Assembly (NCBI RefSeq): GCF_020567425.1
Contig: NZ_JAJCVJ010000002.1
Coordinates: forward strand, 434,001-498,000
Source: Salinirubrum litoreum
GTDB taxonomy: Archaea > Halobacteriota > Halobacteria > Halobacteriales > Haloferacaceae
DNA length: 64,000 bases
Direction: 5' to 3'
Shown: piece after piece, positions 5,861-61,480 of the stretch
How positions within the stretch are numbered: position 1 is the first letter of the stretch
Layout of the letters: each line of letters starts with the position of its first letter
Position numbers and translations under genes: made by a program
The notes under the pieces: generated by a model
What the model was told of the DNA's origin: nothing
Seen by the model: only the letters and a program-made list of their open reading frames with translations
The model's database searches: none

Positions 5861-6029
5861 ACCAGCTAGTCTCACCTGGGGGTGCTCAGCGGTCCCCTTC
5901 ACATGTGCAGCGTTTATCACCTCTTACGTACAGCTTAAATCGAATATACAACTGATTGATCGTCGAGTGCATATCAGCCACGTCGAGGGTCGCCGTCTTC
6001 GACGGTACTCTCCAGAGGTCCGCGCGAAC

Positions 6030-7364
6030 TCAGGCCGTGACGTCGGCCAGTGCCTCGTCTACCAGTTCGGTGGCCGTCGCCGACAGCGCCTCCGTCTGTG
6101 CCCGCGACCGCCCCTCGACGGTGATGCGGACGAGCGGTTGCGTCCCGCTGGCCCGGACGAGGAACCAGCCGTCGTCCGTCTCGACGCGGACGCCGTCGAG
6201 TTCCTGCACGTCGTCGTACCGCTCGCGGACGCGGTCCGCGACCGTCTCGACGACCGCCGACTTCGCCGTCGTCTCGACGCTCCGGCGCTCGATGGGGTAG
6301 GTGTCGACGCCCGCGAGCAACGCGGACAGCGTGTCGCCTGCGGCGACCATCCCGGCGAGCGTGCAGGCGGCCAGCGGCCCGTCGGGACACATCGTCTGTC
6401 CGGGCCAGATCCAGGCCCCACTCGGTTCCCCGCCGAAGACGACCCGGTCGTCGCGGCAGGCGTCTGCCACGTAGACGTCGCCCACCTTCGTCCGGACGAC
6501 CTCCGCCCCGACGGTCGCGAGGGCGTCGTCGACGGCGAGGCTGGTGTTCAGCGGTGCGGCGACCGCGTCCCCCTCGCCGGCCACCTCGCGGCCGAACAGC
6601 GCGAGCAACTGGTCGCCGGCGACGAACGACCCCGTCTCGGTGACGGCCATCGTCCGGTCGGCGTCGCCGTCGTGGGCCACCCCGAGGTCGGCGTCGGTGG
6701 CGGCGACGTGGTCGCGCAGCGCCCGGCAGGTCTCCGCAGTCGGTTCGCTCTCGCGGCCGGGGAACCGACCGTCCGTCTGGCCGTGGAGCGTCGTCACCGC
6801 AGAGCCCACGTCGGCCAGGACGTCTGCGGTCACCCGGCCGGTCCCGTTGCCGACGTCGACGACCACCGAGAGGCCGTCGAGGCCGTCCGTGCCCGCGAGT
6901 CGCTCGCGGAGCGCCGCCCGGTGGCGGTCACCGAGGTCACGGCGTCGGTCGTCGCCGAGGCCGTCCCAGGCGGCCCGGTCGTACTCGCCGGACTCCATGC
7001 GGTCAGCGAGTGCGTCACGTTCCTCGGGGCCGAAGGCGATACCGCTCGGCAGCCAGAACTTCAGGCCGTTGTCGGTCTCGGGGTTGTGAGAGGCGGTGAC
7101 GCCGACACCGGCGTCGGCGTCCAGCCAGCCCACCGCCCGCGCCAGCGCCGGAGTCGACTGGACGCCGAGTCGGACGGCGGTCGCGCCACACTCCTGGAGG
7201 CCGGCGACGAGTGCGTTCTCCAGCATCTGCCCGCTCTCGCGGGCGTCCCGTGCGACGACGACGCGGTCGTAGCCGTCGCTGGCGAGCGCCCGACCCGCGT
7301 CGCTGGCGAGCGTCGCCGTTATCTCCGTCCCGACGGGTCCCCGGATGCCGCTGGTTCCGAACAT
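6030..7364 (-). CDS. glmM: Phosphoglucosamine mutase
   Basis: 444 residues. Converts glucosamine-6-phosphate to glucosamine-1-phosphate. The phosphoserine loop is VTASHNP with Ser92; the metal-binding loop is HDGDADRTM; the sugar loop is GGEPSGAW; the phosphate-binding loop near the C-terminus is RASGTQPLVRI. The start at ATG 7364 gives the canonical MFGTSGIRG N-terminus and lies about 31 nt downstream of a TATA box; a longer reading through the upstream GC-rich region has no family similarity. It completes the UDP-GlcNAc pathway with glmS and glmU in this window. A phosphomannomutase activity cannot be ruled out from sequence because haloarchaeal paralogs overlap in specificity. Confidence 0.93.
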   Translation of the reverse strand: MFGTSGIRGPVGTEITATLASDAGRALASDGYDRVVVARDARESGQMLENALVAGLQECGATAVRLGVQSTPALARAVGWLDADAGVGVTASHNPETDNGLKFWLPSGIAFGPEERDALADRMESGEYDRAAWDGLGDDRRRDLGDRHRAALRERLAGTDGLDGLSVVVDVGNGTGRVTADVLADVGSAVTTLHGQTDGRFPGRESEPTAETCRALRDHVAATDADLGVAHDGDADRTMAVTETGSFVAGDQLLALFGREVAGEGDAVAAPLNTSLAVDDALATVGAEVVRTKVGDVYVADACRDDRVVFGGEPSGAWIWPGQTMCPDGPLAACTLAGMVAAGDTLSALLAGVDTYPIERRSVETTAKSAVVETVADRVRERYDDVQELDGVRVETDDGWFLVRASGTQPLVRITVEGRSRAQTEALSATATELVDEALADVTA

Positions 7365-52066: not shown

Positions 52067-52180
52067 TGGGCCCTGCCGGATTCGAACCAGCGACCGCCCG
52101 GTGTCCCACGACCGCCGACCGCACCCGCAGACGACGACCGGTATGAGCCGGGTGCTCTAACCAGACTAAGCTAAGGGCCC
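52067..52180 (-). tRNA. tRNA-Met (CAT) with a 39-nt intron
   Basis: The minus strand folds as a tRNA: acceptor GGGCCCT pairing with AGGGCCC (A discriminator, no encoded CCA), D arm GCTTAGTCTGGTTAGAGC, anticodon stem CCCGG/CCGGG, T loop GGTTCGAATCC. Loop is CTCATA then A, with anticodon CAT at 52143-52145. The intron at 52103-52141 sits after position 37, the canonical archaeal site. Elongator tRNA-Met introns are known in haloarchaea. CAT could also be an initiator or Ile2 (tilS-type) tRNA; the intron favours elongator Met. Confidence 0.9.
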
Positions 52181-60785: not shown

Positions 60786-60889
60786 GGGCACGTAGCTCAG
60801 TCTGGAAAGAGCGTCGGACTTCTAACCGTGGCGGTGTTCCGTCGCGGGAAGCCATCCGACGGTCGTGGGTTCAAATCCCATCGTGCCCG
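60786..60889 (+). tRNA. tRNA-Arg (TCT) with a 29-nt intron
   Basis: Acceptor GGGCACG/CGTGCCC, D arm GCTCAGTCTGGAAAGAGC, anticodon stem TCGGA/TCCGA, T arm GTGGGTTCAAATCCCAT; discriminator G; no encoded CCA. The anticodon loop is CTTCTA plus A, giving TCT at 60821-60823. The intron 60825-60853 lies after position 37, as in standard archaeal introns; the mature tRNA is 75 nt. An upstream T-run (GTTTTTTG, about 60752) lies in the promoter position. Confidence 0.9.
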
Positions 60890-60890
60890 T

Positions 60891-61038
60891 GCAGTGACGC
60901 TGGCGAGTCGCAACGCGACTCGCCGAGGAACGAACCGGCGCGAAAGGGGATTTGAACCCTGCAAATCGCACGCCCGCGCAGTGAGCGAAGCGAGCGAGCA
61001 GGACCGATTTGCTCCGGTTCAAATCCCATCGTGCCCGT
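60891..61038. mobile_element. 148-bp element duplicating the tRNA-Arg 3' end
   Basis: The 23-nt end of the tRNA plus one base, 60868-60890 (GGTTCAAATCCCATCGTGCC then CGT), is repeated exactly at 61016-61038. Between them is a 9-bp perfect hairpin GGCGAGTCG-CAACG-CGACTCGCC (60902-60924) and a long interrupted stem: GGGATTTGAACC (60947-60958) pairs with GGTTCAAATCCC (61016-61027) and GCAAATCG (60961-60968) with CGATTTGC (61005-61012). The pattern fits a footprint of site-specific integration at a tRNA gene or a small non-autonomous hairpin element. No integrase gene is nearby. Confidence 0.6.
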
Positions 61039-61129
61039 ACTACGATAGTCGTGTCTTCTGAGTGGTTCACAGAGGGTATCTGGTCGAGTCAGTCGTGAGG
61101 AACGCTGTCGAATCTGTCGCAGACAACGA

Positions 61130-61480
61130 GAGGTGAAAGCCCCCGACCGCTCAACCGCCGGGAGAGGCAAGCTCTCCCGAGCCTTCGTTCGCTTCGCTCA
61201 CGAAGACGGCCGCGACTTGGTGCGCGCTTCCCTCAGGCTGGCGGGACAAGCCCGCCAGCCCTCAGTCCAGTGCTACCGGCGTCGGGGCCGGGTCGAGCGG
61301 TCGGCCCCTTTCAGTCCCACCCGAGTTGCGACTCCATCGTGCAACTCGCGGTGGACCAGTCGGATCAGCGCGAGCGCCTCCCTGCGACCGTCGGCGTCGC
61401 CCGAGGCGGCCCTGCGCCGCCGAGGTGCGCGACACGGAGGTCGCGCCAGCCTACTCGACTGGTCTTGTGTCGTGAGTCAG
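61130..61480. other. Island of perfect hairpins of unknown origin
   Basis: No gene is supported. Perfect stems: CGGGAGAG-GCAAG-CTCTCCCG (61159-61179), CTTCGT/ACGAAG around 61183-61205, and the 10-bp GGCTGGCGGG-ACAAG-CCCGCCAGCC (61236-61260). A CTTTCAGTCCCACCCGAGTT segment follows near 61307-61326. The dense hairpins resemble the structured ends of IS200/IS605-type elements, but no transposase remnant is visible, so this is only a suggestion. Confidence 0.35.

Follow-up and report, generated by a model that had tools for sequence, protein, structure and literature searches.

The tRNA-Arg(TCT) locus

The window analyzed here, a 64-kb stretch of the Salinirubrum litoreum genome, contains, on the plus strand at 60786–60889, a gene for tRNA-Arg(TCT) that is interrupted by a 29-nt intron (Rfam RF00005, 60.1 bits; ARAGORN with introns allowed, tRNA-Arg(tct)i(40,29)). 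ARAGORN overlooks this gene at default settings because of the intron and recovers it with introns allowed. Another intron-bearing tRNA, likewise missed by ARAGORN without intron options, lies on the minus strand at 52067–52180 and has no unit of the kind described below.

The 148-bp unit behind tRNA-Arg(TCT) is bordered by a 23-nt direct repeat, GGTTCAAATCCCATCGTGCCCGT, whose two copies on the plus strand (60868–60890 and 61016–61038) are 100% identical and spaced by 148 bp. As the first-pass annotation of the window had stated, the repeat is exact. A 20-nt query taken from the repeat and searched with at most 3 mismatches hits only 2 places in the 64 kb, while shuffled sequences yield no match, so the second 23-nt copy is beyond chance. 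Copy 1 lies within the tRNA and comprises the T-arm from G52, the acceptor 3' strand, the discriminator and one additional T (+1). The tRNA 3' end is indeed duplicated, as had been claimed; the repeat, however, does not end at the discriminator (60889) but runs 1 base past it. The 3' end of the tRNA from G53 to the discriminator is the attB-like target site. Copy 2, as judged from the insertion geometry of empty and occupied alleles, is the displaced original tRNA 3' end, and it also provides the 3' strand of the outer stem.

A spacer (60891–60946) separates the inverted T-arm from the 3' end of the tRNA and has a hairpin of its own at 60902–60924, in which arms 60902–60911 and 60915–60924 enclose a 3-nt loop. 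This hairpin had been reported earlier as perfect with 9 bp; it is present, but its stem has 10 bp. The inverted T-arm copy GGGATTTGAACC (60947–60958, minus strand) forms the 5' strand of the 12-bp outer stem with 61016–61027. The 8-bp inner stem consists of GCAAATCG (60961–60968) and CGATTTGC (61005–61012), which enclose the variable apex of the core hairpin (60969–61004), a segment whose length changes in steps between units. The 12 + 8 bp stem made of T-arm-like sequence had been described correctly in the first-pass annotation. The conserved hairpin module as a whole (60948–61026, plus strand) scores 93.1 bits with covariance model R1, of which the window copy is a training member. Folded as single-stranded DNA, the inserted stretch reaches −43.2 kcal/mol (z = −4.5), and none of 200 shuffles is equally stable. 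The window copy has a T-A pair at the position where most units have T-T. According to Rfam, the window contains tRNA matches only, and the same is true for six loci with units or cores.

A dispersed repeat begins approximately 40 bp past the unit (61081–61313) and has 23-nt imperfect inverted arms at 61134–61156 and 61291–61313. The stretch around GAGGTGAAAGCCCCCGACCGC has several more copies in the same genome, and the repeat looks like a separate small mobile repeat.

Occurrence and range of the units

A BLAST search with the 148 bp against its own genome shows that other tRNAs, too, are followed by related units, and that the terminal sequence of each is the 3' end of the tRNA it follows. 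In Salinirubrum litoreum, units follow 10 of the 44 tRNAs found by Rfam and are missing behind the remaining 34; tRNA-Leu is followed by two in tandem. The hairpin region is also matched in most of the 60 relatives searched, and in all 20 regions fetched from relatives the element lies directly 3' of a tRNA. Of the two first-pass readings, the one of a minimal element made up of its own att sequence is right in essentials. What lay beyond the reach of the first-pass annotation is that this is a large family with tandem arrays, in which each unit carries the 3' end of its own tRNA.

To describe the range, a covariance model was built from 40 distinct units; its E-values are rough, and the training sequences, including the window unit, match it by construction. 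With this model, 91 of 96 Halobacteria genomes with a completeness of 95% or more prove to contain units; the median is 11 per genome and the highest count 37, although the units are related sequences and these counts are not independent. Five Halobacteria genomes (G005, G044, G045, G048, and G070) have zero units at the threshold used. Among 247 genomes of the phylum, searched with stricter filters that may lose weak matches, 43 are positive and all belong to the order of the window organism; no units are found in relatives outside the order. Matches to the exact core pattern in GTDB genomes are likewise confined to Halobacteria. As for location, 33 of the 34 best loci from the model searches have a tRNA on the same strand 32–254 nt upstream, and the remaining one lies behind an att copy of a tRNA-Glu 3' end that adjoins an integrase start.

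Viruses and plasmids contribute little. A pattern scan of IMG/VR for viral attP returns 15 loci, all of which are true tRNA or tmRNA genes or chance matches, with no haloviral copy, and BLAST of the consensus core against phages gives short matches only. The plasmid search finds one real unit, located behind a tRNA-like sequence on a Natrinema megaplasmid (L139). On plasmids of Halomicrobium urmianum and Halomarina sp. BND7 (L140 and L141, both at 5890–6090), another repeated sequence, common to both plasmids, contains a core-like hairpin, GGGAAGTCGCAGCCCGCGCAA..GAGCAGGACCGTCTTCCC, that has neither T-arms nor a tRNA. Given these hairpins, the core motif may be of wider origin.

The units are not described in the largely open-access literature searched. 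Within that scope, this is apparently an undescribed family of tiny gene-free insertions behind haloarchaeal tRNAs.

Boundaries and arrays

The 127 units measured are 94–207 bp long (median 131) and contain no genes; core lengths peak at 60 and 69 nt. Boundaries were determined on 74 first units aligned on their tRNA. Identity to the tRNA stays at background as far as the second base ahead of GTTC (0.27 at position −2), rises to 0.92 at −1, stays at or above 0.96 from G53 through +17, equals 0.91–0.93 at +18 to +20 and then falls. According to this profile, the duplicated segment consists of the T-loop, the 3' strand of the T-stem, the 3' strand of the acceptor and the discriminator, so that it begins at G53 of the T-arm and ends with the discriminator. 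In the same 74 units, the inverted arm matches the tRNA over about 11–12 nt only. Unit borders are thus tRNA sequence.

Units occur singly or in tandem, with the longest arrays containing five (L222 and L227). In 31 arrays the T-copy has on average 0.35 mismatches to the tRNA at rank 1 and 1.06 at rank 2 (11 arrays up, 2 down, p = 0.022). This rise with rank fits a process in which new units insert beside the tRNA and displace the old 3' end. The assortment of spacers is independent of that of cores (L096, L098, L222, and L231), and within one genome, cores that follow different tRNAs reach up to 94% identity. The idea that cores are tied to a given tRNA lineage was rejected, because the median core identity (0.57–0.62) hardly differs between cores behind the same tRNA and cores behind different ones. 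Helical phasing of unit lengths, sought as a sign of double-stranded minicircles, is not detected (R = 0.11 at 10.5 bp, p = 0.2); since lengths are inherited, this test is weak, and the lack of phasing agrees only weakly with recombination confined to one strand. In one locus (L220, 600–810; genome G120), a tandem repeat of approximately 24 bp, CCCAACCTCAATCAGCCTGTAAGT, begins exactly at the right border of the unit.

Hairpin structure and covariation

The hairpin layout is conserved: the inverted T-arm is followed by unpaired bases, then by a stem that covaries and contains a T-T mismatch, then by a variable apex and finally by the direct T-arm; in 40 aligned units the inverted and direct T-arms flank the core. 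In this alignment (A1), pairs 16–79 and 17–78, which belong to the inner stem, are formed in all 40 units with 19 and 25 double changes, respectively, and no one-sided changes. Their covariation score is reached by none of 500 shuffles, and sliding the partner by 1–3 columns removes the signal. The inner stem also covaries among 113 distinct units (A2), where 95% of cells pair, a value biased towards the model, since the alignment was fitted to it. The six inner-stem pairs of A2 have 137 double changes versus 5 G-T pairs, and the columns of the T-T mismatch hold T in 94 and 106 of the 113 sequences.

Pairing is thus selected without conservation of sequence, which indicates that the folded strand matters. 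Covariation alone does not discriminate between folded DNA and RNA. The near absence of G-T pairs favors DNA over RNA, but not strongly.

Insertion polymorphism

Orthologous loci vary in their units. Within a single genus, genomes that share the region downstream of a tRNA-Glu differ at this locus: G147 has no unit, G355 has one of 114 bp, G356 one of 100 bp, and G106 three; the unit of G355 precedes nearly the same trailer that follows the empty locus of G147. The G116 allele of this locus combines the spacer of one G106 unit with a core of another unit's family and looks like the product expected from recombination or deletion between inverted T-arms.

Orthologues of the window's tRNA-Arg behave similarly. 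The most similar gene (L046, genome G026; 90% over the tRNA) has no unit, L055 has one and L047 has three, so the downstream sequence is not fixed. The first-pass annotation had named a conserved downstream sequence at this locus as the observation that would speak against an inserted element, and had asked whether related strains lack the unit: such a fixed sequence was looked for at the tRNA-Arg orthologues and is not found, and L046 is an empty relative. That the units are mobile is well supported, while neither an excised circle nor a recombination event is observed.

Integrases and integrase-encoding elements

Six integrase elements of approximately 2.8–8.5 kb (L224 and L235–L239) join tRNA 3' ends with matching copies. 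In five of them identity starts at GTTC or at most 2 bases from it, and in the sixth, at a tRNA-Ala, a few bases further upstream. In these elements, int faces away from the att copy, which lies a short way before the int start codon, and units often follow behind att. A degenerate case is found in Halobacterium sp. CBA1126 (L133, 1936–4200), in which an integrative element of about 2 kb lies between tRNA-Lys and an att copy and contains only a tyrosine integrase and a 138-aa ORF of unknown function, with an older unit directly behind. The integrase of L133, in which Pfam recognizes phage-integrase domains, is XerC/D-like; against the integron integrase model TIGR02249 it scores 19.9 bits, with a cut-off of 265.

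Close homologues of the L133 integrase are present in 98 of 116 Halobacteria genomes. The median number of units is 4 in genomes without such a homologue versus 11.5 in genomes with one (p = 0.005), and the number of units correlates weakly with the number of integrases (rho = 0.26); phylogeny is corrected for in neither comparison. No integrase consistently linked to the units in cis is found.

Regarding architecture, an inverted T-arm near the left, tRNA-side end is present in 2 of 7 complete integrase elements (L133 and L224), and a core at the right end in none of the 7 examined. The attP regions of Humcor2, Halfgib1, SNJ2, HRPV-9, HHPV-4, and pHK2 (pleolipoviruses and related elements) lack the architecture and have no inverted T-arm. 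In G098 (L221, 775–4030), a tRNA-Gly with a unit is followed by about 2.9 kb, after which comes a 3' fragment of a tRNA together with a hairpin core identical to that of the unit; here a larger element seems to have taken a unit along.

Proposed mechanism and rival explanations

With moderate confidence, we interpret the units as minimal gene-free mobile cassettes at tRNA 3' ends, moved in trans by tRNA-targeting tyrosine integrases, probably via a folded single strand. The window unit and its family would then probably move like an integron cassette. A unit would insert at the G53–T54 boundary of the T-arm; the T-loop, the 3' strand of the T-stem and the 3' end of the acceptor would be supplied anew by the incoming copy, leaving the tRNA intact, and the old tRNA 3' end would be pushed downstream to become the right border of the unit. 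By this geometry, new units would be added beside the tRNA and older ones would drift away. Since the unit encodes nothing, the recombinase must act in trans, and XerC/D-like tRNA-targeting tyrosine integrases of the SNJ2 superfamily, which are widespread among these genomes, would be the likeliest enzymes, because their own elements join tRNA 3' ends at about the same boundary. As for the donor, the inverted and direct T-arms of one strand would pair into a double-stranded T-arm site, the outer stem; because this stem recreates the double-stranded T-arm from one strand, a folded single strand is the proposed substrate. The integrase would recombine it with the T-arm of the tRNA at G53–T54, and replication would resolve the product. 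Trans-mobilization, the identity of the integrase and the single-strand step are what we infer from sequence; a double-stranded site is a possible alternative for the last of these.

Three other explanations have to be weighed. The units might be ordinary double-stranded integration scars, each representing the end of a larger tRNA-targeting element whose inside was deleted, with the hairpin as its arm region. Integrase elements do use the same tRNA ends and adjoin units, in L133 and L224 an inverted T-arm lies close to the end that faces the tRNA, and the 2.9-kb stretch of L221 lies between identical units. In 91 of 96 genomes, however, there is the same module of 94–207 bp, with core peaks at 60 and 69 nt, which independent deletions would not produce over and over; the inverted T-arm is missing in 5 of the 7 complete integrase elements, and the core is missing at the right end of all of them. 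Moreover, strict covariation of the inner stem without sequence conservation is unexpected for a protein-bound double-stranded arm site. This explanation is unlikely, and the scar of a lost element that the first-pass annotation offered as its alternative loses ground accordingly, since the same architecture with its covarying hairpin stands behind many tRNAs of so many Halobacteria. An origin without a recombinase, through tandem duplication, slippage or gene conversion between T-arm repeats and with no dedicated mobile cycle, appears more doubtful still. It would account for identical neighboring units in some arrays (L225, L226, L230, and L234), for repeated two-unit blocks (L222 and L227) and for the G116 allele that resembles a deletion between two inverted T-arms, but it explains neither the first unit at an empty tRNA (G147 versus G355), nor the sharp boundary at G53, nor the relatedness of cores that lie behind different tRNAs or in distant genomes. 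Duplication, slippage and conversion probably account for part of the later growth and shrinkage of arrays and of core shuffling, and part of this growth and shuffling is surely homologous recombination.

The least probable of these explanations is a functional RNA, in which the unit would be co-transcribed with the tRNA and its hairpin would act in 3'-end processing, in termination or as a small RNA. Covariation suits RNA equally, the tRNA together with the unit has a very stable RNA fold (z = −7.7), and all units lie on the tRNA strand. Nevertheless, 34 of 44 tRNAs lack a unit, and orthologous loci differ in whether they have units and in how many, which means that no tRNA needs one. G-U pairs are nearly absent from the inner stem (5 versus 137 double Watson-Crick changes), Rfam gives no match except tRNA, and no function explains the exact duplication from G53 to the discriminator.

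Comparison with known systems

Integron attC sites are imperfect hairpins conserved in structure rather than sequence, with an outer stem, an unpaired spacer, a mismatched inner stem and a variable apex; the covarying structure of the units, with its conserved T-T mismatch, has a similar layout. Like the units, integron cassettes stand in tandem beside a double-stranded primary site. In PMC4792948, attC sites and the attP of CTXphi are described as recombining as folded single strands, and the integron crossover triplet is given as AAC. The crossover region of the units starts with GTT, which is AAC on the other strand; this may be a coincidence, as GTTC occurs in almost every tRNA T-loop. In L145 and L148 the integrase faces away from att and the units, as intI does in integrons. 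The differences are that the units are gene-free, that their primary site is a tRNA gene, and that they are restricted to Halobacteria, a class that the archaeal integron paper does not report (PMC9668308). Integron integrase is absent as well, with none of 59 Halobacteria genomes exceeding the TIGR02249 cut-off. Membership among integrons was rejected on account of the missing integron integrase and the absence of genes in the units.

The units also resemble CTXphi-type attP in having inverted target copies around a hairpin, as seen in the 40 aligned units. A CTXphi-type attP contains two inverted copies of the target site around a hairpin, and its single strand folds into a double-stranded target. 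Elements of this type are gene-poor, use the tyrosine recombinase of another element or of the host, and form tandem arrays. Their target, however, is dif, the chromosome dimer resolution site, while that of the units is the T-arm and acceptor of a tRNA (33 of 34 loci at a tRNA), and the units measure approximately 0.13 kb and have no phage genes. Besides, the CTXphi stem is described in PMC4792948 as mimicking double-stranded DNA with no extrahelical bases, in contrast to the conserved mismatches of the unit stem. Taken as a comparison, insertion geometry, covariation and the conserved mismatch support the analogy with attC and CTXphi.

Tyrosine-integrase elements of the SNJ2 superfamily live in the same hosts, insert at tRNA 3' ends, restore the gene and duplicate the tRNA end at both borders, as the units do. 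According to Wang 2018, as reviewed in PMC8371274, they encode their own integrase and are at least 2 kb long; the units, at 94–207 bp, encode none. The viral attP of SNJ2 type is a 13–14 bp acceptor stem beside the 3' end of int and, unlike the units, has no inverted T-arm and no core. Finally, haloarchaeal MITEs (inverted repeats related to known transposons), PATEs (palindrome-associated) and SMRs (small repeats with inverted ends) share with the units a short, non-coding, repeated and palindrome-rich nature. In the excerpts of PMC3119063 that define them, they are not described as fixed to tRNA genes or as duplicating 21–23 nt of a tRNA, and it is by this description that they are set apart.

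Significance

More tentatively, Halobacteria might have an integron-like system of their own, in which tRNA genes serve as primary sites and tRNA-targeting tyrosine integrases, with no part played by integron integrase, insert gene-free cassettes in the form of folded single strands; we regard this broader claim as possible rather than probable. If it is true, the recombination of cassettes as single strands has arisen on two or more occasions, and the beginnings of integrons could be modeled on tRNA-targeting integrases. If the cassette interpretation is right, laboratory strains of Haloferax or Halorubrum would offer an easily assayed archaeal system for studying how tyrosine recombinases adopted folded single-stranded DNA. 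The units would also explain the puzzling partial tRNA copies behind haloarchaeal tRNAs, with an effect on the mapping of tRNA-linked genomic islands, and would rank among the smallest mobile DNA families, present in nearly all haloarchaeal genomes.
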